Source of the DNA: Undibacterium hunanense
Lineage (GTDB): Bacteria; Pseudomonadota; Gammaproteobacteria; Burkholderiales; Burkholderiaceae_D
Assembly (NCBI RefSeq): GCF_014284335.1
Contig: NZ_JACOGF010000008.1
Span: 186,001-250,000 of the forward strand
Direction: 5' to 3'
Length of the DNA: 64,000 nucleotides
The position numbers and the translations under genes are program-made. A model generated the notes under the pieces. It was given only the letters and a program-made list of their open reading frames with translations, had not been told where the DNA came from and made no database searches. Positions 35,931 to 51,977 of the stretch are shown here, piece after piece (the first letter of the stretch is position 1; each line of letters opens with the position of its first letter).

Positions 35931-36479
35931 TCACAGCATCACCTGATCCAAAGCCATATAAAACGAAGCAATGTGCAGTGATTGAGAAAACTCGCCACTC
36001 GCGATCATTGCTTTCACCTCGGATGGATGGGCGAAAGATTCAATGATGTCTTCGCTGACATCCAGTGTTTTTTCAGCCTGCCGTTGAAGACCGCGTGCAA
36101 TGAATAAATGAATGCTGTTTGTCTGGCGTGCCGGATTGGCGTAATACTTTCCAGCCAGGGTCCAGCTTGACGCCGTGTAGCCTGTTTCTTCCAGCAATTC
36201 GCGCTGTGCTGCTTTCAGTACCGACTCCCATGAATTCACGACACCACCGGGCAATTCTGTGCAGACCACGTTCGCTGCATAGCGGTATTGCCTGACCACG
36301 AGTATCTTTCCATCCGCATCCTGGGCAAACACATGTACCCATTCAGGCTCTTCAAGGACGTAGTAACGTGAAATGGTCTTGCCATTGGGCAATTCGCAGG
36401 TATCAGCTCGCAGGGTGATCCAGCGATCATCGACAATAGATTTGCTGGCCAACTTACGCCATGGTTTCATATTGATCAC
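35931..36479 (-). CDS. Nudix hydrolase (ADP-ribose pyrophosphatase-like)
   Basis: A 182-residue Nudix protein. The Nudix box is a perfect match to Gx5Ex7REUxEExGU: G-VVNSW-E-SVLKAAQ-RELLEETGY (about 80-102). Upstream are the WVHVFAQDADGKILVVRQYRYA strands usual in ADP-ribose/sugar-nucleotide pyrophosphatases. The enzyme hydrolyses a nucleoside diphosphate linked to another moiety; ADP-ribose is a likely substrate but this is only an inference from the family. The gene is single, with no obvious operon partner. Confidence 0.85.
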   Translation of the reverse strand: MINMKPWRKLASKSIVDDRWITLRADTCELPNGKTISRYYVLEEPEWVHVFAQDADGKILVVRQYRYAANVVCTELPGGVVNSWESVLKAAQRELLEETGYTASSWTLAGKYYANPARQTNSIHLFIARGLQRQAEKTLDVSEDIIESFAHPSEVKAMIASGEFSQSLHIASFYMALDQVML

Positions 36480-36579
36480 TTTCTATCTAAAGATATAGCA
36501 GATTGTAAAACACTTGTTATAGACAGGTATCCATAAAATACAGTTTGCAATCTAATGCGGCTTAATTTTTGCAAATTGC

Positions 36580-37716
36580 TTAGTGTTGCCTGGTACCCAG
36601 TGTCAATATCGCAGTCAACAGCTGCATCAATTCAGCTTGTCGGGTCGTGCCTGTTTTACGGAAGACGGACCGCAGTTGGCTGCGCACGGTTGCCACGGAC
36701 ACGCAGGCCTGTAGCGCAGCCTTTGCAGGACTGGCGCCATGCAATATCAGCAGGGCGATACGGGCCTCGGAATTGGTCAGGCCATATATTTGTCTTAACA
36801 GCTCAGTCCCGCTTGAAAACGGCAGTTCCGGGTCATGCACCAGTACCAGCGCCATTGGTCGCGCAGGTGTCGATGACAGCGAATGCTGAACCGGCACAGG
36901 CGTGACCAGGATTTGCAGTTGCAGCTTGTCGGTCATCTTGCTGGCTTGCACCCCGCCTGCTATGCAAGGGCCATCGCTACCACAGGCGGAACGAATCAAG
37001 TTCACTAGCCGCAGTTTGTTAGTGCCGCATAGGCCAAGGCGGCCAGACGCTACATGCAAGATGGTTTGCCGGCGGAACAAGGCTTCGGCAGCCTGATTGG
37101 CAAAAACAAGCTGCCCGGCAGCATCAACAATGCACATGGGAGATCGCAATTGCGCCAGCATGGCAAAGGCCAGATCGGCTTTTTGGGTCATTCCTTCACA
37201 ATGCTGACGCAGACGCAAGGCCCGTTGCAAATGCAGTGTAATGGGTGCCATGTTTGCTGTTGCATACTGGCGATGGAAAGGCTGCCCTATTCCATGCTGT
37301 ATCACCAGAAAACTATTGTTCGGCCCATCACGCAATACAGGTGACACATTGATGGATCCCAGGCCAAATTTGCGCATGAAATCCTGATAAAAAACGCTGT
37401 GCTGCATAGCCTGAACACCAATATGCTGATGATCGATGTACCAGCCGCCAAGCGCTATCTTGTCTACCCAGCCAAGTGCGGGATCATAGGCAAAATAGTG
37501 GTCATTGAATTCGTCGCGACAGGCATCAGTCAGGCCTATGCTTTCATTGACTGTCACAGTATTGGTCTGCCGGTTCAGGGTGGTCAGGGCAACATGTTCG
37601 CTGCCTATCATCTGACACAAAAGACGCAGACCGTTATTCCAGGATGACGGAGTCAATATCCCCTCATAAAACTGGGTAATGATCTGATTCGATAAGGTGT
37701 CGTAGCACTGAGCCAC
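36580..37716 (-). CDS. LuxR-type transcriptional regulator (solo)
   Basis: A 378-residue regulator. The last ~65 residues form a LuxR/GerE helix-turn-helix (YGLTNSEARIALLILHGASP then VSVATVRSQLRSVFRKTG). The N-terminal ~300 residues are not the autoinducer-binding domain of quorum regulators; they look GAF/PAS-like, with a PAS-like part (PMCIVDAAGQLVFANQAAEALF) at about 190-215. No luxI synthase nearby. It is divergent from an outer-membrane-like gene, with two palindromes in the gap, which suggests it controls that gene. Confidence 0.8.
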   Translation of the reverse strand: MAQCYDTLSNQIITQFYEGILTPSSWNNGLRLLCQMIGSEHVALTTLNRQTNTVTVNESIGLTDACRDEFNDHYFAYDPALGWVDKIALGGWYIDHQHIGVQAMQHSVFYQDFMRKFGLGSINVSPVLRDGPNNSFLVIQHGIGQPFHRQYATANMAPITLHLQRALRLRQHCEGMTQKADLAFAMLAQLRSPMCIVDAAGQLVFANQAAEALFRRQTILHVASGRLGLCGTNKLRLVNLIRSACGSDGPCIAGGVQASKMTDKLQLQILVTPVPVQHSLSSTPARPMALVLVHDPELPFSSGTELLRQIYGLTNSEARIALLILHGASPAKAALQACVSVATVRSQLRSVFRKTGTTRQAELMQLLTAILTLGTRQH

Positions 37717-37821
37717 AGTTTCCCCTTGGTGCTACATGCCAATTTTCCGTATGAAAATTTCCACTCGGGAAATATCATCGGGAAAGCCATTTTTTCTAAA
37801 AATATAAAAAATACAGTCATC

Positions 37822-37877
37822 TCATCCATTTGGATGATGCAATTTATGTTGACAAATTTTATGCTTAATTTGTCAAC
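37822..37877. promoter_or_regulatory. candidate operators between luxR-type gene and outer-membrane gene
   Basis: Two palindromes occur in the 364-base divergent gap: TCATCCA-TT-TGGATGA (37822-37837), and GTTGACAAATT (37848-37858) paired perfectly with AATTTGTCAAC (37867-37877) around an 8-base spacer. The second includes a TTGACA hexamer. The layout suits dimeric regulator sites; the LuxR-type gene is the obvious candidate. Confidence 0.55.
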
Positions 37878-38080
37878 AAATTATGACTTCTTTCTGGCTG
37901 AGCGCAATTCCGGCGCAAATATTGACTGGAAATGTGCATGCGTTGATTTGGGGAAACCATTAAGGCTTCTGATCAATAACAGACAGATGTTGGGTGGGAA
38001 GATGCACTCTATCAGTGGCCGGCTGGCAACATGTGCTTTCAAGAAAAACTATCGTTTACAAAATAAAAAGGGAGGATATT

Positions 38081-39235
38081 GTGTCGATCAATTATGTCAA
38101 AAACCAGTTTGCCTCACGCGAAAAATATGACCCGTTTACAGTCATTAAAAAGAGCCTGATTTTTCTTGCCTTAGCCGTATCGGCACAAAACTGCCTTGCC
38201 GTGACTTGCATGGAAAAATGGCTGCCCATGTTTTTGAAAGAAAAATACTCGCCAGAAGATATTGATAAACTGTTGGCTGTTGCATGCAAGACGCCGCCTG
38301 CTTTAACGCAAAAAACTTCTCCTGCACCAACCGATAACACCACTGTAGTTCCTAGAGTTGCCGCTGACACTAAAGCTACAGTTGACACTAAAGTTACAGT
38401 TGATACCAAGGTTGCTACTGATACTAAAACTGCCGCTGATACTAAAACCGCCGCTGATACTAAAACTACGGTTGATACAAAAGTTACAGTTGATACTAAA
38501 GCTGAGACAACGCCGAACGATGCACAGACGAAGGTTGGTTTCGTTTTAGCAGATAACGATGACGTCAACTATCAGAGTGATCAAATTAAATTTCGGTATG
38601 GAAGATCGGCATATAGGGTCGATCTGACGAAAGAAATGATAACGCCGATCTTGGCTTGCCTACCAAAAGCTACAAAACTCCGGGGCATTGGTAAGTTAAA
38701 AGTAAAAATCAATAACAGTAGCGATATTCAACATGCTTTTGTTGTTACCGATATCAGTAAAGAAAAAGAAGACTCAACAATGTGCGTCGGTGCAAATAAT
38801 ACTGCCAAAGAAGGGGATGTACTCGTTTTTTTACAAGCCGAGATTGTAGCCGCTCCACCTGATCGAATCGGTTTGACGTATGGAACAATGATGGTCCCAT
38901 ACAAATATCATCTAACCGGATCGAAAAATTTGACGGGTAGCACTTCAGTAGGAGGATACTTGGGATACAGAAATGAAAACGCTTACTGGGGTCTTGGCCT
39001 ACAGTTAGTTGGTTTTATGGGTGCTGGTCAAATACCAGTAACCCAGAACATCAATGGACAGGATAAAACACAAAACTTGACAGCCTTCAGCTACGGTATA
39101 GGACTGCTAGAAACTGTAAAAGGTAAGTTTCACATGGGCTTTGTTGTGGGTGCAGACCGCGTTAACCCGGATACCGGATATAAAGACAATGGCAAACCCT
39201 GGATAGCGATTGAACTGGGTTATGCTTTTTTCTAA
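38081..39235 (+). CDS. outer-membrane-like protein with hexapeptide repeat region
   Basis: A ~384-residue exported protein. The start is GTG 38081, with GGGAGGA six bases upstream; the frame is open earlier but without a good start. A signal peptide follows an N-terminal polar stretch (IKKSLIFLALAVSAQNCLA). Next come Pro/Thr-rich sequence and eight tandem hexapeptides of the form (A/V/T)DTK(A/V/T)(T/A/E), about residues 95-142. The C-terminal half has alternating strands (YLGYRNENAYWGLGLQLVGF) and ends in Phe (ELGYAFF), as outer-membrane barrels do. The repeats could be a flexible spacer across the periplasm. DUF5675 gene follows at 28 bases. Function unknown. Confidence 0.65.
   Translation: MSINYVKNQFASREKYDPFTVIKKSLIFLALAVSAQNCLAVTCMEKWLPMFLKEKYSPEDIDKLLAVACKTPPALTQKTSPAPTDNTTVVPRVAADTKATVDTKVTVDTKVATDTKTAADTKTAADTKTTVDTKVTVDTKAETTPNDAQTKVGFVLADNDDVNYQSDQIKFRYGRSAYRVDLTKEMITPILACLPKATKLRGIGKLKVKINNSSDIQHAFVVTDISKEKEDSTMCVGANNTAKEGDVLVFLQAEIVAAPPDRIGLTYGTMMVPYKYHLTGSKNLTGSTSVGGYLGYRNENAYWGLGLQLVGFMGAGQIPVTQNINGQDKTQNLTAFSYGIGLLETVKGKFHMGFVVGADRVNPDTGYKDNGKPWIAIELGYAFF
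38363..38506 (+). repeat. 18-base minisatellite coding hexapeptides
   Basis: Eight 18-base units (gctgacactaaagctaca-like) lie in frame inside the outer-membrane-like gene, encoding (A/V/T)DTK plus two residues. Units differ by a few bases, so the array is old enough to have diverged but may still vary in length by slippage. Confidence 0.85.
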
Positions 39236-39263
39236 CTGATTTACAATCATTGAGGAGATTTAC

Positions 39264-39713
39264 ATGAAAATAGTAGTCGACCGTTTCATCTCTGACGATG
39301 AAACCACCATCAGCCATATCACCGTGGATGGACGTTTTGTCTGTTTTGGCCTGGAAGATGAATACCGCGTCACGAAACTGGTGAACGAAACCCGTATCCC
39401 TGCCGGTACTTACAAGGTGAAGTTGCGCACGGAAGGCAAGCACAATGAGCAGTACAAAGTACTGTTCCCGGATATCCATCGCGGCATGCTGCATATCCAG
39501 GACGTGCCTGGCTTTGAATATATCCTGATCCACTGTGGTAACACACAGGCCGATACGTCTGGCTGCCTGCTGGTGGGCACCAGTGCTGTCACGGACAAAC
39601 ACAATATGTCCATCGGTGCCAGCCGCCCTGCCTACAAGCGCCTGTATCCCATTGTCGTAGACGCCGCCGCCAAGGGGACACTGGAAATTCAGTTGATTGA
39701 TAATGATCACTAA
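39264..39713 (+). CDS. DUF5675 family protein
   Basis: A 149-residue soluble protein with the family layout: ISHITVDGRFVCFGLEDEYR, TRIPAGTYKVKLRTEG, MLHIQDVPGFEYILIHCGNT and DTSGCLLVG. The His-Cys and Asp-Thr-Ser-Gly-Cys residues recall the catalytic HxG/C of L,D-transpeptidase-like folds, and some family members are linked to phage or secreted effectors; the role is not established. GAGGAG precedes the ATG. It lies 28 bases after the outer-membrane-like gene, in an apparent two-gene operon ended by a strong terminator. Confidence 0.75.
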   Translation: MKIVVDRFISDDETTISHITVDGRFVCFGLEDEYRVTKLVNETRIPAGTYKVKLRTEGKHNEQYKVLFPDIHRGMLHIQDVPGFEYILIHCGNTQADTSGCLLVGTSAVTDKHNMSIGASRPAYKRLYPIVVDAAAKGTLEIQLIDNDH

Positions 39714-39764
39714 GCAAGTCTGCGGTCTTAGTACTGGTTGCAGTTAAGGTACCGTTACACCACA

Positions 39765-39795
39765 GGTCTGCATGAATCCATGCAGACCGTTTTTA
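39765..39795 (+). terminator. intrinsic terminator after the DUF5675 gene
   Basis: GGTCTGCATG (39765-39774) pairs with CATGCAGACC (39779-39788) around AATC and is followed by GTTTTTA. A textbook rho-independent terminator, 52 bases after the stop codon. Confidence 0.9.
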
Positions 39796-39969
39796 TTCAC
39801 CCGCCCTGCTATACCCACCCACCTGTAACGTTTAATTACACAATCACCAACGATGATTGAATAATTAACATGCCCTTACAATTATAATATCCCCTCGTAA
39901 TGCAAGTGCTGGGCCAGTCTTGTGTCGGTTACTGCCCTTTTTTTGAACCAAACGCGAGGTCTATACAAG

Positions 39970-40533
39970 ATGTTGTCTTTACTAAAGCTGAATTTTGTCA
40001 GGAACGTGTTGATCGGTTGCTTTTTGATTTACCTGATAGAAAAAACCATCAGCTTCCAGTACATTAAAAATATATTGGCGTTGCCGGTGCTGTTGTGGAT
40101 AGCAGGTAATGTCATTTATGGTCTGGGGCACAACCGGCGCGAGCGCAAGAAGTTTGAGAAAAGAGTGCATGCCTTTTGCAAGTTCACAGACGACAATTGC
40201 CTTGACATTGATGAAGGCAATGCCATGGCGCTTGATTACGACAGCAAAACCATTTACCTGATCAATAAAACAGGGCAAATCGCCCTGCAACCAGAACAGA
40301 TTTTGCGCTGGGAAATCGGCATGGCCCGTGACCGAATCACAACCACGCTGACCTCTGCCACGGCCTATACCCCAAGCAGCGCGAGTGTCACCATGACACC
40401 GGGTGGCGTATCGTATGTCACTTTCTGGATTAATGGCGGCGCTTACCATGTGTTTACCGTGGCCGTGTCTTCCGAAAAGATCGTCAACAGACTCAAGCAT
40501 TTTTCGCTGGTCAACAATATTGCCATCGTCTGA
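39970..40533 (+). CDS. two-helix membrane protein, unknown
   Basis: A 187-residue protein from ATG 39970; an earlier in-frame start would precede the first helix with unlikely sequence. Two hydrophobic helices (about 10-27 and 33-52) are followed by a basic segment (HNRRERKKFEKR) and a soluble domain with a beta-strand-rich middle (MALDYDSKTIYLINKTGQIA). No family recognised. The next gene follows by 23 bases on the same strand. Confidence 0.55.
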   Translation: MLSLLKLNFVRNVLIGCFLIYLIEKTISFQYIKNILALPVLLWIAGNVIYGLGHNRRERKKFEKRVHAFCKFTDDNCLDIDEGNAMALDYDSKTIYLINKTGQIALQPEQILRWEIGMARDRITTTLTSATAYTPSSASVTMTPGGVSYVTFWINGGAYHVFTVAVSSEKIVNRLKHFSLVNNIAIV

Positions 40534-40556
40534 TTTTCTTTTACCCTGATAACCCT

Positions 40557-41330
40557 ATGAAGACTTTACGCCTTGCCTTGTGCGCGACGCTGGCCAGCAT
40601 CGGCTTTGCCAGCGTGACCATGACCTGCCACGCGCAGACCTGGACGGACATGCCAGCCATGGACACCAAATCCAACGTCGTCACCCAGCGTGCAGATAGC
40701 CCCATCTATAGCCGTATGGCCACGGACAAAAAATTCCGTGAATTTGCCTACAATGCCATCAACGTCAGGGGTGAAAAACTGAATTATGAGCTGGTGCTGG
40801 AATCGCGCGCGGCCTTGTATGCCAAGCCTTCGCTGCGCAAGGTATATGAAACCCGTGCAGGTAAATACTATGTCAGCTATTGGGTGCAAGAAAGCCGCGC
40901 CTACCGCTCGATGCCTTTTCGCCGCAATGCAAACCTGGCCCTGATCGTGGTCGACACCATACCCGCAGACCAGAACAACCCGCAGTTCAAGGCCGTTGCC
41001 GACAAGTTGCCGTATGCGGTGTACCAGATCAAGTGGGATCAACCCAAAAGCAATGACCGTGGCACCATACGGGTAGATGACAGCGGTTCTGCCGTCAAAT
41101 GGAACTGCAAGACCAAGGATGGCCGCAACATGCCGACCATGCTACAAACAATGATCATCCACAAACCAAATTTCGAAAAAGAAACCGAGTATTACCACAC
41201 CGCGTATTACATCACCGATGACGGCCTGCTGAAAGACAACGGCTGGGGCAAATCCAACATCTGCACAAACCGCAGCGTGGGGCCGGATGATGAGGTGTCG
41301 AAGTGGGTGAGGTTTTGGGGTGGGGAGTGA
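40557..41330 (+). CDS. hypothetical exported protein
   Basis: A 257-residue protein with a signal peptide (about residues 1-26, ending CHA-QT). The mature domain has many Tyr and charged residues and regular strands (YYVSYWVQESRAYRSMPFRRN, cut here); a CKTKDGRNMPTM segment and a second Cys near the end could form a disulfide. No family recognised. Probably co-transcribed with the membrane protein gene upstream. Confidence 0.6.
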   Translation: MKTLRLALCATLASIGFASVTMTCHAQTWTDMPAMDTKSNVVTQRADSPIYSRMATDKKFREFAYNAINVRGEKLNYELVLESRAALYAKPSLRKVYETRAGKYYVSYWVQESRAYRSMPFRRNANLALIVVDTIPADQNNPQFKAVADKLPYAVYQIKWDQPKSNDRGTIRVDDSGSAVKWNCKTKDGRNMPTMLQTMIIHKPNFEKETEYYHTAYYITDDGLLKDNGWGKSNICTNRSVGPDDEVSKWVRFWGGE

Positions 41331-41387
41331 GGCTAGTTGAATAATTACCGTAGTTAAGAGAGCAGATTCAAAATTTTGAAGCAATAA

Positions 41388-41425
41388 TTGACAGCTAAAT
41401 GTAATATGGTGAATATTATAATATT
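41388..41425 (+). promoter_or_regulatory. AT-rich promoter with palindrome before the ATPase-methyltransferase gene
   Basis: TTGACA stands at 41388-41393, and a perfect 14-base palindrome AATATTATAATATT at 41412-41425 contains TATAAT (41417-41422). The spacing to TTGACA is long (23), so the -35 is uncertain. With this -10 the transcript would start only a few bases before ATG 41437, and no ribosome-binding site is visible, so a leaderless mRNA is possible. The palindrome could be an autoregulatory site. Confidence 0.5.
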
Positions 41426-41436
41426 TACACTTAATT

Positions 41437-43314
41437 ATGCTGATCAGTGAATTTCATATTCCCGAGATTGAGGCGAGCGAACTTGGTTTAGCTGACATTC
41501 ACATGTCTCGCCTGGGAAAGTATGTGGCAATTGCTGGGAAGAACGGCTCGGGCAAGACAAGGCTACTAAAGAAATTGGAAGAATTGATTGCATATCGTGA
41601 CCAAAATTTATTTCAATCTATTGCTTTCTCAAATTCAATTAAAGAAATAGAAAAAATTATTGAAGAAGATAAGCAAAAACCAAATGACGAAAAGTGGAAA
41701 AATGAGCTTGTTTTAGCTACACGCGCCTACGAAAGACTTCATAACACAATCACTCTCAAAAATAGCTCACCTATCAAGTCATTAAAATTTGTTCCAAAGA
41801 AGCTACTTCTTTTAGATCCACTTTACATGAGCCTTGGGGAGCTTATTGAAAAGTATTCGTCAGCACAAAGTTTAGGAATTGAAGATCTCTCAACGATATG
41901 TAGTGCATATATTCAGCAAGTTCAAAACCTTTGGTGGAATGCTACGCACCCTGAATTCGTCGAAATCGAAGGCCATCCAAGTAAACATGAATTGACTGAA
42001 TCCTATAGCCGATTAAAAAATTTAATTTTGGCTTTAATGGAAGAGGAAATTCAACGTTCGCCTGCCGGTGAAGTAATGATTTTTAATAAATCATTCCTAA
42101 ATGCAGGGCTTTCAGATGGTCAGATAATTCTCTTGCAGTTAGCCGTCGCAATACACGCAAGGAATGGCGTATTGAACGACACAGTTTTCGTTCTGGACGA
42201 ACTTGAAAACCATCTCCATCCATCTGTAGCTATCGATATCATCGAAAAAATAAGTTCAGCAGCACCAAACGCTCAGTTTTGGATTGCCACACATTCTATC
42301 CCTTTACTCGCCTATATTTACAGTAAAGATCCGTCGGCTCTATGGTTTATGGAGAATGGTCGGATTTGTCACGCTGGCAGGCATCCTGAAAGAGTTTTAA
42401 ATGGTCTTCTTGGTGATGATGAACGCATAGGTCAACTAAACACATTTACCGGTTTACCTGCAGAACTTGCTGCGACAACTTATGCAGTCGAAAGCTTAAT
42501 GCCTCCCACAGTTGCTCCCCTACAGAAAAATGATCCTCAAATCAATCAGATTGCTACATTCATAAATGCGAAGCAATCCGAAGGCTCAGTTTCGATTCTT
42601 GATTTTGGAGCGGGAAAGGGAAGACTGCTTGAGGGTTTAACCGCACAATTTACAGCAGATGAACAATCGCAAATCTCTGGCAAAATATCCTATTTTGCTT
42701 TTGATGAATTTCCAGCCGATAAAGAGACCTGCCAAGCCTTAATCAAGGAATATTATCCAGATTATGAGAAAAGGTATTTCGAGTCAGAAGCAAGGTTTTT
42801 CGAAATCAAAGACAATGCATCCATTGATATTGTTGTGATGTGCAATGTCCTTCACGAAATACCGCCGAAAGACTGGCTAGATTTGTTTTCATCTTCATCT
42901 TCAAATACAGCCCCATCAATTATCAATCGCGCACTTCGTGAAAACGGATATTTACTGCTAGTTGAAGACCAACGAATTCCTGTTGGAGAAAAAGCGCATG
43001 AACATGGATTTTTGGTGTTAGACACTGCTGAGTTGAGAACTTTGTTTAAAGTGAGCGAAGTAGATATCAATAATGAAAAATTTATTGTCAATAGTCAGAG
43101 AGATGGTCGCCTAAAAGCACACTTGATTTCAAAAGAACTGCTAGCTCGAATTGATGCGACTAGCAGAAACAATGCAATAGCCGAATTGCAGAGTTACGCA
43201 AAACGTCAAATAAAAAATATTCGTAAAGAGCCAGCAACATATGCGAATGGACAATTGCACGGATTTTGGACTCAGCAATTCACAAACGCTTTCTTGTATC
43301 TTCAAGAAAATTAA
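41437..43314 (+). CDS. fusion of ABC/OLD-type ATPase with SAM-dependent methyltransferase
   Basis: A 625-residue two-domain protein. Residues ~1-330 form an ABC/SMC-like ATPase: Walker A GKNGSGKT (34-41), an ABC-like signature LSDGQ (225-229), Walker B VFVLDELENHLHP (250-262, D254/E255) and an H-loop ATHS (284-287). This is the AAA_15/AAA_21 or OLD-related class common in phage defence (no TOPRIM domain here). Residues ~385-560 form a class I methyltransferase: motif I DFGAGKGR (389-396), the acidic strand end FDEFP (422-426), and CNVLHEIP (469-476). The last ~65 residues are unassigned. The gene is AT-rich and stands alone between higher-GC genes, as if inserted. Function, including defence, is inferred; the fusion itself is seen directly. 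Confidence 0.7.
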   Translation: MLISEFHIPEIEASELGLADIHMSRLGKYVAIAGKNGSGKTRLLKKLEELIAYRDQNLFQSIAFSNSIKEIEKIIEEDKQKPNDEKWKNELVLATRAYERLHNTITLKNSSPIKSLKFVPKKLLLLDPLYMSLGELIEKYSSAQSLGIEDLSTICSAYIQQVQNLWWNATHPEFVEIEGHPSKHELTESYSRLKNLILALMEEEIQRSPAGEVMIFNKSFLNAGLSDGQIILLQLAVAIHARNGVLNDTVFVLDELENHLHPSVAIDIIEKISSAAPNAQFWIATHSIPLLAYIYSKDPSALWFMENGRICHAGRHPERVLNGLLGDDERIGQLNTFTGLPAELAATTYAVESLMPPTVAPLQKNDPQINQIATFINAKQSEGSVSILDFGAGKGRLLEGLTAQFTADEQSQISGKISYFAFDEFPADKETCQALIKEYYPDYEKRYFESEARFFEIKDNASIDIVVMCNVLHEIPPKDWLDLFSSSSSNTAPSIINRALRENGYLLLVEDQRIPVGEKAHEHGFLVLDTAELRTLFKVSEVDINNEKFIVNSQRDGRLKAHLISKELLARIDATSRNNAIAELQSYAKRQIKNIRKEPATYANGQLHGFWTQQFTNAFLYLQEN

Positions 43315-43352
43315 CCACTCAAGACGTTCGCAATAATCTGACTATTTTGTTC

Positions 43353-43844
43353 ATGAAATTTTTCAAAATTCTTTTTTCTATAGTACTATTTTTTCTTGGT
43401 AATTCCGCTTTCGCGGACGACAAAGCAAATCAGAGCTTCAGCGCAGATCCCAACATCCAGAAAATAGCCGAAGCCTATTCTCTGGATGCGGTCGATTATG
43501 CGAAGAATCAATTTGGTGTGCGTCTTGACTGGACTGATGCCAGCATAGAAGAAGTTGAGAAGACGTTGGCTCGCATGCATTCTTCATACATGGAGACGAC
43601 ACCCAAGCCAACTGAAGCACAAGTCATGCAGTTTGCAAAGGCTTTTGGCAGCTATTTGGGTGAGGTTAGCCGCCGGAATCACGGTGCGGAATGGGGAATA
43701 GTCAACCTCTTCGGGCAAAAGTTTCCTGGTCTAAAAACTAGTTCTGGGATGCTGTTCTGGCCTTGGATGAAGGTATCTAAACGCATTACGCTTGGTAGCG
43801 AAGAAGACGTTTTTTTCTACTATCAGGCGTTCCTAAACAAATAA
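43353..43844 (+). CDS. hypothetical exported protein (DUF3806-like)
   Basis: A 163-residue protein from ATG 43353 with a signal peptide (about residues 1-20, ending AFA-DD). The mature part has a YAKNQFGVRLDWTDASIEEVE segment and FGSYLGEVSRRNHGAEWGIV. This combination recalls DUF3806-type proteins, which have unknown function. The start is 39 bases after the ATPase-methyltransferase gene, but base composition is less AT-rich, so the two may not belong together. Confidence 0.55.
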   Translation: MKFFKILFSIVLFFLGNSAFADDKANQSFSADPNIQKIAEAYSLDAVDYAKNQFGVRLDWTDASIEEVEKTLARMHSSYMETTPKPTEAQVMQFAKAFGSYLGEVSRRNHGAEWGIVNLFGQKFPGLKTSSGMLFWPWMKVSKRITLGSEEDVFFYYQAFLNK

Positions 43845-43893
43845 ACTGTGTTCTCGGAAAATTACACTTCAGGAACACCAGCACTATTTACCC

Positions 43894-44418
43894 TTACCCA
43901 ACCTGGGGATAACTAGCCCCTTCCAACATAGACGGCACCGAGCAGTTCACGCCTGGCAGATTGTTCCAGTTGGGATCGCCCCGTTTGGTTTCCAGCATAT
44001 TGGCCCAGTGTAGGGTTTCTTCGCCGCCGCCGGAGGTGGCCATTTGCATCTGGAATACCCATTGCTGGTCGAGCTTGCTCATGTGGCCAAAGCCGGTGAC
44101 GATGGATTCGCGCAGGCCGCCGCCACGGATAAAGCTGATCTGCACCTGACCATTGGCGGTGACTGTACCCACCATGCTGCGTTGCTGGGGGGATGCACGT
44201 GGACCACTGCTGCTTTCGCCAGCGTCAACAATGATGGCCGATGACACGCCCCAGAAATAGCCGTTTTTGTAGCCGGAGATATGCCAGACGGTTTGATCGA
44301 CTTTCCAGTTCAGCAGATTGTCGCTTGCTGAAAATTGCAGGGCGGGCAGATCTGGATAGGTCACGTACCAATAGGTATCGGCCAAAAAATCCCAGCTTGT
44401 GCGATTGATGTCCGACAT
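43894..44418 (-). CDS. hypothetical soluble protein
   Basis: A 174-residue protein; start chosen at ATG 44418, which has GGAGA a proper distance upstream, rather than the in-frame ATG six codons earlier. Trp/Tyr-rich N terminus (TSWDFLADTYWYVTYPDLPA) and a beta-rich body (VDQTVWHISGYKNGYFWGVS). No signal peptide. No family recognised, though the layout suggests a lipocalin-like small barrel. Confidence 0.55.
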   Translation of the reverse strand: MSDINRTSWDFLADTYWYVTYPDLPALQFSASDNLLNWKVDQTVWHISGYKNGYFWGVSSAIIVDAGESSSGPRASPQQRSMVGTVTANGQVQISFIRGGGLRESIVTGFGHMSKLDQQWVFQMQMATSGGGEETLHWANMLETKRGDPNWNNLPGVNCSVPSMLEGASYPQVG

Positions 44419-44436
44419 GTGTGTCTCCATTTCCAA

Positions 44437-44725
44437 AAAAATACCGTGCCGTTAGAAAAATGTTACGAGCCATTATAGTATTAAAATGAAAATTACATGT
44501 AAATTTGATATTTTTATCGTAAAGCTCTCATCCCACGCCCATGCCTGCATTGATGTCTGCAAATAGCGCATTTTCATAGGTAAAACTATTCCTTCTTAGA
44601 AAAGAAAGCTTGAATTAAGCTGTTTCAAAGGACGGCCATTTTCTGCTTTCGACATGCCTGTATTCGCTGACCGGCAATACAGAAGCTGCTGTCATCTACA
44701 GTGGGACGCTAAAAACAGAGGAGAC
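44437..44725. other. gene-free gap
   Basis: About 290 bases. AT-rich near 44460-44520, no gene or hairpin recognised. Confidence 0.3.
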
Positions 44726-44923
44726 ATGATGACCATCAAGTTCGAACCACAGTTTCACAAGAAGATGTCACAGTCGGGCGACCACGCGGTATGGGTTGCA
44801 CTGCCTCATCCCAGAACGATCATTCCGGTAAAGGCCCATTATTACCGCCAGTGGCAATTTGAAGAACAGTTAAAAATTCAGGGTGCGGGTGATGTGGTGC
44901 TGGCGTTTCCGGTTAGTCAGTAA
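44726..44923 (+). CDS. small basic protein, unknown
   Basis: A 65-residue protein starting at one of two adjacent ATGs (44726 or 44729), with GAGGAGA about eight bases before. Basic and soluble (MMTIKFEPQFHKKMSQSG, HPRTIIPVKAHYYRQW). No family recognised. Good ribosome-binding site argues for a real gene. Confidence 0.5.
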   Translation: MMTIKFEPQFHKKMSQSGDHAVWVALPHPRTIIPVKAHYYRQWQFEEQLKIQGAGDVVLAFPVSQ

Positions 44924-44994
44924 CAGCTATGTACTGGGACGATATGTGCGGTGCATCAAGTCGATTATCCAGCCCATGCCGGATGAGATAAGCA

Positions 44995-45432
44995 CTACTG
45001 TTTTTTAATTTTGGCAGCCTGCAAGCGACGCTGCAACAACATACCCACCAACATGGCTGGCAAGAATACCCATGTCTCCCAATTGGGGTTGGCCAAAGAG
45101 GCGATGGCAGGGCCGGGGCAATACCCGCTGATTCCCCAGCCGATACCAAAGATAATGGACCCGGCGACCAAATTGCGATCAATCGCCGTTAGTGTTGGAA
45201 GATTGAAATGATCTGAAAACAGTGGTTTTTTCCGGCTCAGTATCCACCTGAATGCAATGACAGTCACGGTGACGGCAGCGCCCAATACGAATAGCAAATC
45301 CGGATTCCAGTTGCCCGCCAGATCAAGAAAATCAAGGACCTGCCCGGGATTGGTCATACCGGATATCGCCAGCCCCAAGCCGAACAAGAGACCCGCCACC
45401 AGGCTGCTTAGGTTGAACACTAAGGATGTCAT
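44995..45432 (-). CDS. YeeE/YedE family sulfur transporter subunit 2 (DUF6691)
   Basis: A 145-residue inner-membrane protein with four helices, starting at ATG 45432 in a TGATG overlap with the upstream partner. It carries the second-half signature GIGWGISGYCPGPAIASL with a Cys facing the pore. The YeeE/YedE (TsuA-like) family transports thiosulfate or related sulfur compounds; here, as often in proteobacteria, the transporter is split into two small subunits. A FadL-type porin gene lies upstream on the same strand, suggesting one operon for uptake of sulfur or hydrophobic compounds. Confidence 0.85.
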   Translation of the reverse strand: MTSLVFNLSSLVAGLLFGLGLAISGMTNPGQVLDFLDLAGNWNPDLLFVLGAAVTVTVIAFRWILSRKKPLFSDHFNLPTLTAIDRNLVAGSIIFGIGWGISGYCPGPAIASLANPNWETWVFLPAMLVGMLLQRRLQAAKIKKQ

Positions 45433-45860
45433 CAAAATACCTTGAAAAGATGGCGAACGACCAGCGCGGTAACGATGCCTGTCGATAAAAACAGGAGTGT
45501 GGCTACGAATGAGCGTGTCGACAAGCGCCCTATCCCGCACACGCCATGGCCGCTGGTACAGCCATTCGCCAGCGAGGTACCAAAGCCAACCAGCAAGCCA
45601 GCAACGGCCAGTAACCAGGGTGGAAAATGTTCCCGTGCAGCTGGTGCATGGCCAGCGACGACATAATAAATGCCCGCGCCGCCTATCAGGCCCAGTAAAA
45701 ACAGCGCGCGCCACCAGCGTTCACCAGAACTGGCGGCAAACAAATTGCCCGCTATATTGCTGATGCCTGCAATGCGGCCCGTGGCCCACAGCAACAAAGC
45801 GGCAGAGATGCCTATCAATGCGCCGCCCGCCAAAGAAGTATAAATAGCCAGGTTAGTCAT
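45432..45860 (-). CDS. YeeE/YedE family sulfur transporter subunit 1
   Basis: A 142-residue inner-membrane protein with about four helices and the first-half signature NGCTSGHGVCGIGRLSTRS, including two Cys that in the homologous YeeE relay thiosulfate. It is followed with one-base overlap (TGATG) by subunit 2. The usual neighbours of this pair in sulfide/persulfide-responsive operons (an ArsR/BigR regulator and a persulfide dioxygenase) are not visible here. Confidence 0.85.
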   Translation of the reverse strand: MTNLAIYTSLAGGALIGISAALLLWATGRIAGISNIAGNLFAASSGERWWRALFLLGLIGGAGIYYVVAGHAPAAREHFPPWLLAVAGLLVGFGTSLANGCTSGHGVCGIGRLSTRSFVATLLFLSTGIVTALVVRHLFKVF

Positions 45861-45959
45861 TCTTTTATATCTTGTATTTACAGGCCCAACAACTCGGTTG
45901 CTTATTCTAATTGCCCATTCTGCTTACTTGTTTTGACAGCTTCGTTTTTCAATTATTTT

Positions 45960-47219
45960 TTACAGTTTCCAGGCGAATGCAATGCCGACAATATTTTCAC
46001 TCAGACTGACATTCGCGTTGCCACCACCAAACGGAGCGGGGATAGAATTCACGCCATTGATGGTTTTCTTGAAGCCATGCGAGTAAGAAAAACTGATTTC
46101 AGTATTCGGCGTATTTTTAAACGTAGCACCAAAAGTCAGATGGTCTTGCACGACACCTGGCGCAAGAATATTGAAAAAAGTCTGATCGCTTTGTACTGCC
46201 TGCCCGCCATGATTGTAACCAGCGCGCAAGTCCAGTGCTTTATTGTACTCGTAAATCGCACCGACTTTTACCACCGTAATATCACGCCAGCCAAAACCTG
46301 GTCCATTTGCTGACCCCAACGGGTTGCCCGCAAATAAATTGGCCAGAGGGTTGGCAATGGATTTGACACCGGCAAATTTAATCCTTTGCACATCTGCCGC
46401 CAGTGTCAGGCCTGGTGCTGGCTTGAAGGCGATTCCCAGTCCATAGTTTTCTGGTATGTCAAAGCCACCTTGGTCGGCAAATAAGCCACGGTATTTTTCA
46501 AAATTGCCGGTCTTTACTTTGGAAGCCCATGTGGCACCAAGACTGAGTTCTGGCGTGATCTGGCCATTCCAGCCCAGGTGAAAGCCCCATCCGTTTGACG
46601 CATCCGTTCCGCGATCAGTCAGGTTAGCCGCATCGATAGAATTGCTTGAAAATACGCTCAGTCCATTAGCAGAAAAACGCTGGTAAGCGAAATTTGCGCT
46701 GATGCCTATCGCATTCTGGTCATTGAGCTTGTAGGCAAACGATGGTGAAACAAACAGTTGTTCAAGGTTAATGCCAGCCCGCCCCTTGCTGCCAAACGCG
46801 CCAAATGGATTCTTGCTGTAGTCGGTGTTCATACCACCGTTGCCATAGACGGCGATGCCAACTGCTGCCGCAGCGGACAATTGCCTTGTATAGGCAATCT
46901 CGGGAATAAAAAAATTACCTGTGTCATTACCGTCATAACTGCCATTGGCACCTGGCGCGCCATTGCCGGTAATGTCTGCACCACGCCTGGGGGCAAACCA
47001 GCTTACACCTGCGTCAACCCTGTCCCCCACCAATACCGTCCCCGCTGGATTGGTGGCCGCCGCCAGGCTGTCCTGCGGTAGAGCGATGCCGATACCACCT
47101 GTCGCTTGTGACTTGACGCCGAAGCCATGCGAAAAATAACCGTCAGTAGCAAATGCTCCGGTAGATATGGTCATTGATAGCAGTAGTATTTTCTTTATGC
47201 GGTGGGATGTCAGTTTCAT
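45960..47219 (-). CDS. outer membrane transporter, OmpP1/FadL/TodX family
   Basis: A 419-residue outer-membrane barrel with a signal peptide (about residues 1-24). The typical FadL opening is present: DGYFSHGFGVKSQATGGIGIAL then AATNPAGTV, which is the N-terminal hatch. The C terminus ends GIAFAWKL. The family moves hydrophobic molecules (fatty acids, aromatic hydrocarbons) into the cell. It is 99 bases upstream of the YeeE/YedE pair, in the same direction, an arrangement seen with sulfur-metabolism operons in some beta-proteobacteria; whether it passes a sulfur compound is inference. Confidence 0.85.
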   Translation of the reverse strand: MKLTSHRIKKILLLSMTISTGAFATDGYFSHGFGVKSQATGGIGIALPQDSLAAATNPAGTVLVGDRVDAGVSWFAPRRGADITGNGAPGANGSYDGNDTGNFFIPEIAYTRQLSAAAAVGIAVYGNGGMNTDYSKNPFGAFGSKGRAGINLEQLFVSPSFAYKLNDQNAIGISANFAYQRFSANGLSVFSSNSIDAANLTDRGTDASNGWGFHLGWNGQITPELSLGATWASKVKTGNFEKYRGLFADQGGFDIPENYGLGIAFKPAPGLTLAADVQRIKFAGVKSIANPLANLFAGNPLGSANGPGFGWRDITVVKVGAIYEYNKALDLRAGYNHGGQAVQSDQTFFNILAPGVVQDHLTFGATFKNTPNTEISFSYSHGFKKTINGVNSIPAPFGGGNANVSLSENIVGIAFAWKL

Positions 47220-47449
47220 TGCTAGCCCTTTACCTTTTTGATTGCGGTGCTAGTTTCTAAACTAACTCCAGTGTATTTTGTCTCTTGTCCTGCTGATGAT
47301 CAGCGATACACTGCAGATTTAAGCGCATATTTTTTATTCGAAAAACGAATTATTACGAGCTTGAATATCTGTTTTTTAAATTTGACCTGCGCGGACGAGG
47401 TGGATACATCCGTTCTGATTGCGTTTCGGATGCATGGGAGCTTCAGTGT

Positions 47450-47579
47450 GTAGGTACGATTAGCGAAGCGTAATCGTACGTATGTTGTGCCTTGCAATGG
47501 CGAAGACATTCAATCAGCGGTTGAATATAGCAAGCCGTGATAAACATGCGTACGATTACGCTTCGCTAATCGTACTTAC
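47450..47579. repeat. inverted pair of REP-like hairpins
   Basis: gtaggtacgattagcgaagc (47450 onward) and the reverse complement at 47548-47579 are identical over ~30 bases. Each is a palindrome around GTACGATTA / TAATCGTAC. Same plan as the hairpins at 14937 and 29131-29345 but with a different base sequence in the stem. It fills the gap between the FadL-type gene and a serine hydrolase. Confidence 0.75.
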
Positions 47580-47601
47580 CTTCTGCGTTCGAATCTATTT
47601 G

Positions 47602-48729
47602 CTACACCGCTGGCAACTGACTTGCGCCCAGCAAACTATAGGCAAATTCATCCATCGTTTTTTGTGACATGTCGGTGTTGTTGAGGATGATGACGGTGTC
47701 TTCTCCATCGAGCCTGTGCCCGAGTACGGAGCGGTAGCCTGTGGTGCGGCCTGTTTCCCAGCCGAAGCGGTGGGTCTGGCCAGCGATTTGCAGATTCTTG
47801 ACGCGGCCACCCAGAGCATAGTTTTCGCTGTCGACTTCGATATGGGTCAGTTGCGCCAGCGATGCAGGCGTGATGAAGCCCTGGTTGAAGATGGCTTGTG
47901 CTGCCTTCATCAAATCGTCTGCGGTGCTGTAATAGCCACCGGCGGCAGCCATATAGGGCTGCCGCACATCGGTTTTGCGGGCTGGCGGGTTGATGGTGGC
48001 ATAGGGCACGGCAGTGGCGGCATCGTCGGCATAGGCCTGATCTGCACGGGTGGCAGACAGTTTCAAGGGGTCAAGCGTGATATTGCGCATGGCTTGCTGG
48101 AACGGCTGGCCGGTGACTGCTTCGACTATGCCCACCACGATGATCCAATTGGTGAGGGCATAATCGAACTTACTACCAGGCGGGAAGATGGATTCGCCCT
48201 GGCAAAACTGCTGCATGGCCTGCGTGGTAGTCATGCTGGCGGTGAACAGGCTGCGATCGGCCTTGATCATGCTGATAAACTGGTTGGGAATGCCACTGGC
48301 GTTGGACAGCAAATGCCGCAGCGTGACCTTGCTGCCGGTATCGGCACGGTGTGCTGGCAGGTAGCGTTTGATAGGCGCATCCAGATCAAGCTTGCCCATT
48401 TCGACCAGCCGCAGCACGGTGACCGATGTCAGCCATTTGGAAATAGAGGCGATGGCAAACGGGGTGTCTGCCCGCAGCGGCTTTTGTTCTTCGATATTGG
48501 CCATGCCTATCGCACGCACATAGGTGGGCTTGCCACGCTTGCCCAGCATGACGACACCATAGAATGGCTGGGCTTTGACGAAGGCGTCGACGACGGGGTT
48601 GTCGGCACCGATGACGTCGCTGCTGCCAATGCCAATGCTATTACCACTGCCACTGCCGGCAAAAGCATGTTTGCCCAATAGCGCAGCGGCGCTGCCTATC
48701 ATGAAGTGGCGTCTGGTCCAGTGTGTCAT
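47602..48729 (-). CDS. serine hydrolase, beta-lactamase-related, with Tat signal
   Basis: A 375-residue exported hydrolase. The N terminus has a Tat motif (TRRHFMIGSAAALLG), so it is exported folded. SxxK is S95-I-S-K98 (FAIASISKWL), and the Tyr motif is in FDYALTNWII. The repeated Gly/Ser stretch after the signal (SGSGNSIGIGSS) is a linker. It may be coupled with the next serine hydrolase (48795-49868), which is upstream on the same strand, 65 bases away, though not closely similar. Confidence 0.85.
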   Translation of the reverse strand: MTHWTRRHFMIGSAAALLGKHAFAGSGSGNSIGIGSSDVIGADNPVVDAFVKAQPFYGVVMLGKRGKPTYVRAIGMANIEEQKPLRADTPFAIASISKWLTSVTVLRLVEMGKLDLDAPIKRYLPAHRADTGSKVTLRHLLSNASGIPNQFISMIKADRSLFTASMTTTQAMQQFCQGESIFPPGSKFDYALTNWIIVVGIVEAVTGQPFQQAMRNITLDPLKLSATRADQAYADDAATAVPYATINPPARKTDVRQPYMAAAGGYYSTADDLMKAAQAIFNQGFITPASLAQLTHIEVDSENYALGGRVKNLQIAGQTHRFGWETGRTTGYRSVLGHRLDGEDTVIILNNTDMSQKTMDEFAYSLLGASQLPAV

Positions 48730-48794
48730 GGCTTACCCTATGGTGAAATCAATCGGCGATGTGAGAGTGACTGCCATACTGACCACCATCCGCA

Positions 48795-49868
48795 TCATTG
48801 GTTCATTTTTTCTGCCAGGATAGCCTTCAGGATGTTTTCTGAGCGGCGCTGTCCATAACCTTTTCCATAGGCGCTGGAGGTGACAACGACGACGGCATGC
48901 AAAGAGGGGATGACATAAATTTTATTGCCGCCGTTGCCGGATGCAAAAAAGACGGGGATGGGTTGCTCCTTGGTCGTCGGCACTTTAATTGTGTGCACTT
49001 TGGCATACCAGAAATAGCCATAGCTATCGGCATAATTATCTACAGCAGCAATGCTTACCTGCGGTGTCAGCATGGCGTCTATCCAGGCGGCGCTGATGAC
49101 ACGCTGGCCCTGAAACATGCCTTTATCCAGCACCAGTTGACCGATTTTGGCAAGGTCACGGGCAGTCAACGACAGGTTGCCCTGGCCTTTGGGATGCCCA
49201 GCTACATCACGCCCCCACTGCCAGTGGCTGATACCCAGTGGCTGGAACAAGGCTGTGCGGGCGAATACTTCCAGGTCCTGCCCAGTCGCTTTTTCGACGA
49301 CGATGCCCGCCAGATAGGCGGTGACGGAGTTGTAGCGGTAGTTTGCGCAAGCGCTGGTGTCCCTCGGTAGTGACAGCACAAAGGCCAGCGGATCGGGGGC
49401 TACATCGAGTTTGTCTTCATTGCCAGGCGAGGCAACATCTTCATCAAAGGCAGCCAGGCCAGAGCGCATGCTTAACACCTGGGCCAGGGTGGCCTCGCCA
49501 GCGGCGCTGCCTTTGCTGGCAGGCCAGTAGTGCCACACCGGGTCACTGGCGCTGTGTATGCTGCCACGGTTCAGCGCGGCACCCAATAACAGAGAGGTAA
49601 TGCTTTTGCCGACCGAGCGGGCATCATGCAAGCCATCTGCCGTTGCACCGTTGTAGTAACGTTCAGCGATGATTTTGCCGTGTTGCTGCACTAGCACGCT
49701 GCGTAAATCTTTATGCTCGTCCTGATCCCATTGCGTCAGTATGGTGTTGAGTTTGTTATCGGGCCGGGGTGTTTGTGCCTGTGTTTGTGCCTGTGCTTGC
49801 AGTGGACAAAGCATGGCACTGGCAACTGCGAGCAGGTATATCGCTCGTGTACAGAGGTGGAATCGCAT
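48795..49868 (-). CDS. serine hydrolase, beta-lactamase-related
   Basis: A 357-residue exported hydrolase with a signal peptide ending in a Gln/Ala repeat (QAQAQTQAQT), encoded by short tandem tgtgtttgtgcc-like DNA. SxxK is S85-V-G-K88 (DARSVGKSIT), and the Tyr motif is NYRYNSVTAYL. A closing HAVVVVTSSAYG segment is usual. Start ATG follows GGAGACC about six bases upstream. It and the next gene form a minus-strand pair; the AraC gene is just upstream and might control them. Confidence 0.85.
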   Translation of the reverse strand: MRFHLCTRAIYLLAVASAMLCPLQAQAQTQAQTPRPDNKLNTILTQWDQDEHKDLRSVLVQQHGKIIAERYYNGATADGLHDARSVGKSITSLLLGAALNRGSIHSASDPVWHYWPASKGSAAGEATLAQVLSMRSGLAAFDEDVASPGNEDKLDVAPDPLAFVLSLPRDTSACANYRYNSVTAYLAGIVVEKATGQDLEVFARTALFQPLGISHWQWGRDVAGHPKGQGNLSLTARDLAKIGQLVLDKGMFQGQRVISAAWIDAMLTPQVSIAAVDNYADSYGYFWYAKVHTIKVPTTKEQPIPVFFASGNGGNKIYVIPSLHAVVVVTSSAYGKGYGQRRSENILKAILAEKMNQ

Positions 49869-49916
49869 GGAAGGTCTCCAGACAATAAAATGGCAAACCC
49901 TGATTATGGAAGCTAT

Positions 49917-50762
49917 TTATCTAACTGGCTTGTATCGGCGCAACATCCTGCCCTGCTCGTCCGGACGCCCCTGCACCCTTGCACGCCAGGCACCTGGGGT
50001 AAGACCAAAGGTCTGGCGGAAGCTGCGGGTCAGGTGGGCCTGGTCGACAAAGCCAGTCGCGAAGGCGGCATCGGCCAGGGATGCAGTGGCAGTACCGATG
50101 ACGGCAGCCGCTCTTTCCAGGCGCCTGCCACGCAAATAATCGCCCGGCGAACAATGCAGATAACGGCGAAACACTCGCGCCAGATGAACCGGATGCACAC
50201 CGGCAAAGGCGGCGACATCGGCAACGCTCAGACCGGGGTCGTCGCTGGTGAAGATCATTTCAAATGCCTGTTTGAGCCAGACTGGTGGCTGCGATGCGTG
50301 ACGGCTTTCATCCGATGTCAACGGGCTGCAGGCGGCCAGCAGTTGTTGCGCGCCACCTTCCAGTTGCAACTGGCTGAGATTTTTTCTTTGAAAATCGGCG
50401 GCGATGCGTGTGGCCACCTGCAAGGCATACAGATCACGCAGAGATGTGGCAAAACCAAAACCTGCGGCATCACCACCGGATATGGCCAGGAAGCGGCCAC
50501 GTCCACCCAAAAACCGGTCGCGGTGCGTGGTGCCAGCAGGATTGAAGATCAGCAGCGGCGTATTGGACATGGCGGGTGCATGTCTGGCCGACGACATATA
50601 TGCACCAGACAGTACCAGCACAAAATGCGCCTCTTCATGCATATGAGTCTGCACTTCATCTTCAGGCGGATTGGCTGCCAGCAGGTGAAAGCTGAAGCCT
50701 GGTGTTTCTCGCCCCTGCGGACCAGCGCCCCAGAATTCGGTACGGGTACGGCGAATGACCAT
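49917..50762 (-). CDS. AraC-family transcriptional regulator
   Basis: A 281-residue regulator. The N-terminal half is a cupin-like sensor (MHEEAHFVLVLSGAYMSSAR); the C-terminal ~100 residues hold two helix-turn-helix motifs (LSVADVAAFAGVHPVHLARV and SLADAAFATGFVDQAHLTRS then FGLTPGAWRA). It is upstream of and in line with the two serine hydrolase genes, separated by 48 bases from the first, so it may belong to their unit. Effector unknown. Confidence 0.9.
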   Translation of the reverse strand: MVIRRTRTEFWGAGPQGRETPGFSFHLLAANPPEDEVQTHMHEEAHFVLVLSGAYMSSARHAPAMSNTPLLIFNPAGTTHRDRFLGGRGRFLAISGGDAAGFGFATSLRDLYALQVATRIAADFQRKNLSQLQLEGGAQQLLAACSPLTSDESRHASQPPVWLKQAFEMIFTSDDPGLSVADVAAFAGVHPVHLARVFRRYLHCSPGDYLRGRRLERAAAVIGTATASLADAAFATGFVDQAHLTRSFRQTFGLTPGAWRARVQGRPDEQGRMLRRYKPVR

Positions 50763-50831
50763 CGTGGCTGCTTGCTCCGGTTGAATTAAAGCGAATGTAC
50801 ATCGTATCTATGCAGTGCACGCAATGCCGCG

Positions 50832-51049
50832 CAGGGTGCGCTGAGCGCACCGGATACCGCACCCTTTTGCGTGGACGGTGCGCGCGGCGCACCCTACCAG
50901 GGATCTACATATCTGAAGAATATCAGCGATATTTGATCGCGGCAAAAAAACGCTTACTATCCGCACCGGATAACGTCACGTAGGGTGCGCCGCGCGCACC
51001 GGCTGCCAAACCCTTTATTGTATGGATGGTGCGCGTGCCCACCCCTACG
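50832..51049. repeat. two REP-like long hairpins (agggtgcgc ... gcgcaccct)
   Basis: Unit 1 (50832-50896) and unit 2 (50980-51049) are similar ~66-base cruciforms. Their ends (tagggtgcgccgcgcgcacc and reverse) are GC-rich dyads with a T/A-richer loop (aaaccctttattg type). Same orientation, 84 bases apart. This tgcgc family occurs widely in related genomes as intergenic repeats. The 310-base gap between the AraC and deacetylase genes contains nothing else. Confidence 0.75.
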
Positions 51050-51072
51050 CCACACCGTATTATAAGCAGCAC

Positions 51073-51837
51073 TCAGGATTTGTCGCGCTTTGTTTTTTGA
51101 TCCGGCATTTTTTGCATTTCTACCTGATCCAGGCGTACGAAAACAAAACCTTGTTTCAGGGCGTCGTTCAATCCGGATGACAATCCCTGGGCGGAATCGG
51201 ATTGGGGTTTGTTCATGTGGGCGATGATGACATCGCCTGGCTGCAGGCGTTTGAATTTGTCGACGATGGCTTTTTTTCGCAAGGTGGCACCGTGGTCGGC
51301 ATTGAACGAGAAACCGGCGATCTTGTAGCCAAGGCGATTAATTTCTGTAATCGCTTCTGCATCATATTTGGCGCTGGCACCGCGATACCATTGTGGGGCA
51401 ATGCCTATGGTGCTGGTGATGGCTTTGGCGCCTTCGGTGACTTCGCGTTGAAGGTGGGCGATATCGGGTTCGCCAGCCAGACCGTACACGGTTCTGCCGC
51501 TGCCGATGATGGCGGGAATATGTTTTTCGCCATGGTCTTCGACAGCAAACAAATCGAGGTTGGATTTGATGACAGTAACGCCACGGGGATTTTTATCCAG
51601 CCATTTTTTAGTGACAAAGATGGTGGCGGGTATGCGCTTGCGTATCAGGAAGGCGAGCAAGTCTTCATCAAAACGGCCAGAGCAGGCATCCAGGGTCAGG
51701 GCCACTTTGTTTTCTGCCCTTGCTTGTGGTGCCAGCCGCGCATGCACTTCCATCGGTTTGGCATGGGTGGTGGCATGGCAGAAAAGCAGGCTGGTGCAGG
51801 CAAAAAGAGAAAGCTGGCGCGTGGAGAAAATCATCAA
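51073..51837 (-). CDS. polysaccharide deacetylase family protein
   Basis: A 254-residue exported protein with a signal peptide (about residues 1-26, ending THA-KP). The NodB-like core has VALTLDACSGRFDEDLLAFL (the usual TFDDG is replaced by TLDAC), EDHGEKHIPAI with the candidate metal-binding His, and later QWYRGASAKYDAE and VIIAHMN. The Asp/His/His metal set seems present. Related proteins remove acetyl groups from chitin-like or peptidoglycan polymers. Substrate unknown; TLDAC variant is notable. Confidence 0.75.
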   Translation of the reverse strand: MMIFSTRQLSLFACTSLLFCHATTHAKPMEVHARLAPQARAENKVALTLDACSGRFDEDLLAFLIRKRIPATIFVTKKWLDKNPRGVTVIKSNLDLFAVEDHGEKHIPAIIGSGRTVYGLAGEPDIAHLQREVTEGAKAITSTIGIAPQWYRGASAKYDAEAITEINRLGYKIAGFSFNADHGATLRKKAIVDKFKRLQPGDVIIAHMNKPQSDSAQGLSSGLNDALKQGFVFVRLDQVEMQKMPDQKTKRDKS

Positions 51838-51977
51838 TGGCTTTATGGTTCCAGAATTGTGTTCCAGTATACATTTTGCATGCCGAATAAATAGCGTAAT
51901 TACATTTGGTAAAAATTGGATGATGGCTGCACGGCGTTGCGATCAACAGCGCAGTGCAGCTTATTCTGGAAATGACA

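Follow-up and report, generated by a model that had tools for sequence, protein, structure and literature searches.

PtuA and OLD ATPases are known to control nucleases, and the partners of PtuA and AriA are HNH or TOPRIM nucleases. In the available part of its description, PtuAB of retron-Eco7 depletes tRNA-Tyr and causes growth arrest only when both proteins are expressed (PMC11555353), and the accessible text on the AriA ATPase has it activating AriB (PMC12839542). Here we describe a gene of Undibacterium hunanense in which an ATPase, by its predicted fold closest to PtuA, is joined in a single chain to a putative class I S-adenosylmethionine (SAM)-dependent methyltransferase. It lies in a stretch of 64,000 nucleotides, called the window below (assembly GCF_014284335.1, contig NZ_JACOGF010000008.1, positions 186,001 to 250,000), and positions are those of the window unless a locus is named. 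By analogy, we give about an even chance to the fusion being a one-gene, horizontally spread immune module of prophages and genomic islands, in which a PtuA-type ATPase would gate a methyltransferase effector.

A conserved fusion of two enzymes

The gene occupies 41437..43314 on the forward strand, as do all the features of the protein given below, and encodes 625 amino acids plus a stop from an ATG start, as judged from the open reading frame list and the family alignment. The reading frame proposed in a first-pass annotation is therefore real, and in the family alignment and a count of motif patterns both domains are intact, with the ATPase and methyltransferase motifs where that annotation had placed them. 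The family comprises 12 members including the window protein, one of which (L002) is truncated by the end of its contig; this census is a lower bound, drawn from locus searches, genome searches and annotated collections. Five loci came from a scan of GTDB representative genomes with peptide patterns of the window protein alone, which reaches close relatives only, and the others are the copy of a congener (L007), four virus contigs from IMG/VR found with a profile, and a distant Bacteroidota member (L057) found with a C-terminal profile and 27% identical to the window protein. The domain order is identical in 12 of 12 members and, as 11 further proteins share it with the motifs kept, the fusion goes beyond chance. 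Pairing the two enzymes in one chain is as unusual as was first supposed: no entry covers both halves among the Pfam matches or the best 25 matches each of NCBIfam and PADLOC, and in a comparison of the whole fusion with BFVD the best listed matches are by name single-domain ATPases or methyltransferases, none of them convincing over the full length.

The ATPase half (residues 1-330; 41437..42426) has a helical insertion between the Walker A motif and the signature. Walker A, GKNGSGKT (residues 34-41, with K40; 41536..41559), is kept in 11 of the 11 members that reach that region. The ABC signature LSDGQ (225-229; 42109..42123) is found as LSxGQ in 12 of 12, as are the DE of Walker B, VFVLDE (250-255, with D254 and E255; 42184..42201), and the ATHS containing the H-loop residue H286 (42292..42294). 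Pfam gives AAA_21 at 7e-14 over residues 220-291, and there are also profile matches to AriA and GajA. The original label, OLD/ABC-type, can be sharpened, the modelled fold being nearest to PtuA. At 42184-42210, next to Walker B, the window copy alone departs from the family: it reads DELEN, and all the other members (11 of 11) read DEPE(N/K).

After a linker modelled with low confidence (residues 333-362; 42433..42522; predicted local distance difference test score below 50), the C-terminal half (about 366-567; 42532..43137) is predicted to have the class I SAM-dependent methyltransferase fold, Rossmann-like with the GxG of motif I. This motif, DFGAGKGR (389-396; 42601..42624), has its GxG in 12 of 12 members. 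In place of motif IV stands NVLHE (470-474; 42844..42858), kept as NV(L/F)HE in all 12, and at strand 5 there is an invariant family signature, EDxx(I/L)PxGE (510-518; 42964..42990), present in 12 of 12 as EDxx(I/L)PxGExA. H473 aligns with the histidine of NVLHN in AprA MT2 and, weakly, in Plu4895. In the predicted models the chain ends in two long helices (574-596 and 602-624; 43156..43308). Pfam matches to Methyltransf_23 (3.9e-5) and related models over residues 382-510 fall below the gathering score. NCBIfam matches of the C-terminal halves are weak and mixed (CpaM in 4 of 11; MetW, MnmC2 and PRK06202 in 1 of 11 each; best 2.5e-4), with none for the window's own half.

When the other members are set against the window protein, similarity is higher in the methyltransferase core (residues 381-540) than in the ATPase half with its variable insertion, in 11 of 11 comparisons. 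Between other pairs this does not always hold: for L005 and the partial L002 the ATPase half is more alike (66% against 61%), and the two halves are about equal between L001 and L012 (69% and 70%). In three pairs the proportion of nonsynonymous differences (pN) is 0.16-0.26 and that of synonymous differences (pS) 0.76-0.87 in both halves, the synonymous rate (dS) being saturated and hence no ratio given. On this comparison of sequences both halves are under purifying selection. Since pN is so far below pS and the motifs are kept in 12 of 12, the methyltransferase is maintained and not decaying; the loss of its motifs in homologues, raised at the outset as a possible objection, was not seen in any member.

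A rare and patchily spread gene

The fusion gene is rare, foreign-looking and patchily spread. It was matched in 2 of 43 genomes of the window's genus, the window's own included, and in that genome only among 399 of the order and 398 of the phylum. In the phylum of L004 it was matched in 2 of 395 genomes, that of L004 included, and two further draws gave 1 of 350 and 1 of 216, each time the centre genome alone; the genome sets of these draws overlap. No standalone methyltransferase copy was found in 398 and 43 genomes (E 1e-15) or in 395, 350 and 216 genomes (E 1e-8), in draws that overlap and of which only part of the first-look candidates was scored (three per genome in the 399-genome order scan with the whole-protein profile); every methyltransferase match in these scans belonged to an open frame long enough for the fusion. 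C-terminal and whole-protein profiles run against virus contigs gave full-length matches in the same four contigs only. Short methyltransferase matches (L062-L065), loci matching the ATPase part only (L016-L027 and L069) and ATPase-only matches in relatives (L008-L011) were left out of the family.

The richness in A and T that the first-pass annotation had remarked on is borne out, the gene having 39.1% G+C against 50.5% for the window and, at third codon positions, 32% against 45-71% in eight neighbours. The gene is poorer in G+C than the DNA around it in every case measured, 10 of 10 (eight loci, the congener contig and the window; L002 and L057 left out). As the congener's copy is less like the window copy (37% identity) than are those of Thiobacillus (45%) and a filamentous-phage contig (44%), the sequences speak for separate acquisition by window and congener. 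In the tree of the family 2 forks of 8 are starred, the long branches of L057, L007 and L015 are flagged, and the joining of the window copy with the congener's is unsupported. The gene sits at the left edge of a segment, 41331..51072, that differs from congener G436, where homologues of the genes flanking 41.3-51.1 kb lie only about 2 kb from each other, separated by other genes; in G026 the left and the right neighbour have homologues 365 kb apart on one contig.

Phage genes lie near the four copies on virus contigs: L012 and L013 each have a regulator, accompanied by RecE in the former and by a Zot-like filamentous-phage gene in the latter, and there is a baseplate gene in L014 and a tail gene in L015. 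The L014 copy is situated, by eye, toward that end of the contig where host-like genes are found, so that it is likely, though not surely, carried inside the phage. The stretch around the distant Bacteroidota copy (L058:1330-13589) encodes a Y-family polymerase, a recombinase of the phage-integrase family, an S24-type repressor and, by eye, a long DNA polymerase III alpha-like open reading frame; it may be a mobile element that carries a mutagenesis cassette. Following the Thiobacillus copy, two neighbours match PDC-S64 (2.3e-56) and SoFic (3.1e-42) of PADLOC, and this stretch (L005:9942-12115) is perhaps a small defence island. Neighbours of L003 match PD-T7-4 (weakly) and PDC-S05.

Proposed function

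Among the functions suggested for the gene at first, we infer that defence has become more likely, because phage genes lie near four copies, defence candidates adjoin the fusion at 2 of 6 loci and the spread is patchy. A known non-defence pathway, named beforehand as a possible contrary finding, was not found attached to the family among the neighbours, which were partly scanned. DNA base methylation has become less likely since NPPY-type ((D/N/S)PP(Y/F/W)) and PC catalytic motifs are absent from 12 of 12 C-terminal halves, and no DNA methylase is among the 50 matches listed in either fold comparison. A DNA base methylase was accordingly rejected on its motifs, despite weak PADLOC matches of this type in 2 of the 4 halves scanned (MTase_II, 0.0065; mad2, 0.0045). 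Methylation of RNA and of small molecules are both candidates.

The mechanism that we favour, held with somewhat less than even confidence, is that a PtuA-type immune ATPase switches on the fused methyltransferase upon infection and that phage growth is halted by its product, a methylated RNA, nucleotide or metabolite. By analogy to PtuA and AriA, the ATPase half would assemble into an oligomer and restrain the effector until an infection cue changed its nucleotide state. The effector would be the class I methyltransferase, replacing the HNH or TOPRIM nuclease, and its released activity would be directed not at DNA bases but at another target of host or phage, for which RNA and a small metabolite or nucleotide are the likeliest candidates. 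Phage growth would be blocked by this methylation.

Several observations weigh against an immune module of this kind. The NCBIfam PtuA equivalog scores 44.3 bits, far short of its 500-bit cut-off. The four copies with viral genes come from a virus collection, so that this association is partly built in, while nothing was matched among 72,556 plasmid records or 50,697 phage records at E thresholds of 1e-5 and 1e-3. PADLOC found nothing at 4 of the 6 loci scanned, namely the window (2 proteins), L004 (1), L013 (1) and L058 (2), and the count of 2 of 6 with defence candidates stands without a matched control. By eye, L001 lies amid metabolic genes, L002 adjoins formate-dehydrogenase-like genes and L007 has a glutaminyl-tRNA synthetase-like gene as its neighbour. 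No constant neighbour or conserved partner was seen across the loci, and for this reason the fusion probably acts as a single gene. No trigger or substrate was found, and two of the four C-terminal halves scanned have the weak DNA-methylase-type matches given above. Finally, the searches found no methyltransferase effector in any PtuA-type system, and the effector role is therefore assigned by position only.

It is possible, if doubtful, that the target is narrower and that methylation of tRNA or rRNA shuts down translation on infection, as PtuAB does through depletion of a tRNA. RNA methylation of the Hen1-like or METTL6-like type stays a candidate because these enzymes tie with small-molecule enzymes in the fold comparison, within 1 Z unit; the same tie means that small-molecule enzymes match the fold equally well, and no RNA-binding domain is among the Pfam results.

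We consider it unlikely that the gene instead serves lysogenic conversion, with the methyltransferase altering a surface or metabolic molecule of the host to the lysogen's advantage, and with no role for the ATPase beyond regulating or delivering this enzyme. The phage genes near four copies and the resemblance of the methyltransferase half to small-molecule enzymes would fit, as would two acyltransferase-3 genes, of a kind often modifying surface sugars, on the virus contig L012 that carries the fusion (L012:3692-7138). The ATPase half, however, is by predicted fold of the PtuA defence kind, and two chromosomal copies adjoin defence candidates. More improbable again is a protective mark, placed by an ATPase-driven enzyme on prophage or host nucleic acid to evade restriction or another defence. 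Phages often carry methyltransferases, and two C-terminal halves do have the weak matches to MTase_II and mad2, but the motifs and fold comparisons that argue against a DNA methylase argue equally against this. Least probable of all is a sensor role, in which the methyltransferase domain would be no effector but would report loss of SAM to the ATPase. Some phages destroy SAM, and all members (12 of 12) retain the SAM-binding motif I, which would fit; NV(L/F)HE and EDxx(I/L)PxGE are kept as strictly, however, and neither a further effector domain nor a constant partner gene was observed.

If the fusion is indeed an immune module with a methyltransferase effector, the PtuA/OLD-type control unit would be a general switch for unlike effectors, and methylation would join the known bacterial means of abortive infection, giving immunity by methylation and not by cutting. 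With one gene of 1.9 kb and clear active-site residues, both halves are directly testable.

Upstream region and neighbouring genes

The proposal of an upstream palindrome does not hold, as the best one in the 100 bases before the gene is no better than in shuffled sequence (49 of 200 single-base shuffles reach its score). Better-than-shuffle palindromes occur at L003 (2 of 200) and L013 (5 of 200), with sequences unlike the window's, and none at the other eight loci examined. The leaderless promoter likewise becomes a mere possibility: a TTGACA lies upstream at 41388 with a weak -10 element, and the promoter scan is no richer than shuffles, with 6 sites against 6.3 expected.

The isolation of the gene was rightly noted, for it stands alone between genes lacking a Pfam match at E 0.01. 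Further upstream, a run of unassigned genes (39264-41330) includes a DUF5675 gene (3.6e-30, Pfam), the gene at 40557 has homologues elsewhere in the genus (5 of 41 other genomes), and an open reading frame at 37994-39235 carries consecutive near-repeats of DTKxxxDTK type. Downstream on the reverse strand (44995-45860), two overlapping frames side by side have, by eye, the look of YeeE/YedE-type sulfur transporters. Near the end of the congener contig (L007:108-563) an open reading frame resembles, by eye, part of an IS110-type transposase.

Comparison with known systems

Our literature search, which most subscription papers lay outside, found no description of this fusion. The methyltransferase half is similar in fold to class I methyltransferases of the polyketide synthase (PKS) type or acting on small molecules (PsoF, CurJ, AprA MT2 and OxaG) and to METTL6, with NVLH resembling the PKS type. 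In the fusion family the histidine and glutamate are adjacent in NV(L/F)HE, with EDxxIPxGE in addition, whereas AmxMT1 has an H304-E308 dyad in the part of its report available (PMC9821293). No carrier-protein or biosynthetic gene was noticed beside the fusion, carrier genes not having been searched for specifically.

The ATPase half has its nearest fold in PtuA of Septu PtuAB and the type I-A retrons (Ec83, Eco7/Ec78), but here a fused methyltransferase takes the position of the effector. HNH (PF01844) has one match in the genome, on contig C43 and not on the window's contig C97, and is absent from the five window genes closest to the fusion (Pfam, E 0.01 or below). RVT_1 (PF00078), searched in this genome alone, has two, on C54 and C75 and not on C97, and in a test for retron msr/msd RNA no Rfam match at gathering scores was found at 36000-52000. 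The OLD ATPase-TOPRIM systems, Gabija GajA and PARIS AriA/AriB, likewise combine an ABC-type ATPase with an enzyme, in the same chain or as a partner, but no TOPRIM is among the 20 Pfam matches of the fusion at E up to 1 or in its five neighbours, and a methyltransferase is present instead. The PtuXYZ candidate locus, in the available part of its description, combines a PtuA-like PtuY with a DUF262 nuclease and effectors of PIN-like/BECR fold (PMC11980606). It thus shares a PtuA-like ATPase combined with other effectors, but comprises three genes with nuclease-type effectors, a methyltransferase not being mentioned in that part. PtuA-like ATPases with other effectors are therefore already known from PtuXYZ, and it is the fused methyltransferase in the putative effector position that sets this family apart.
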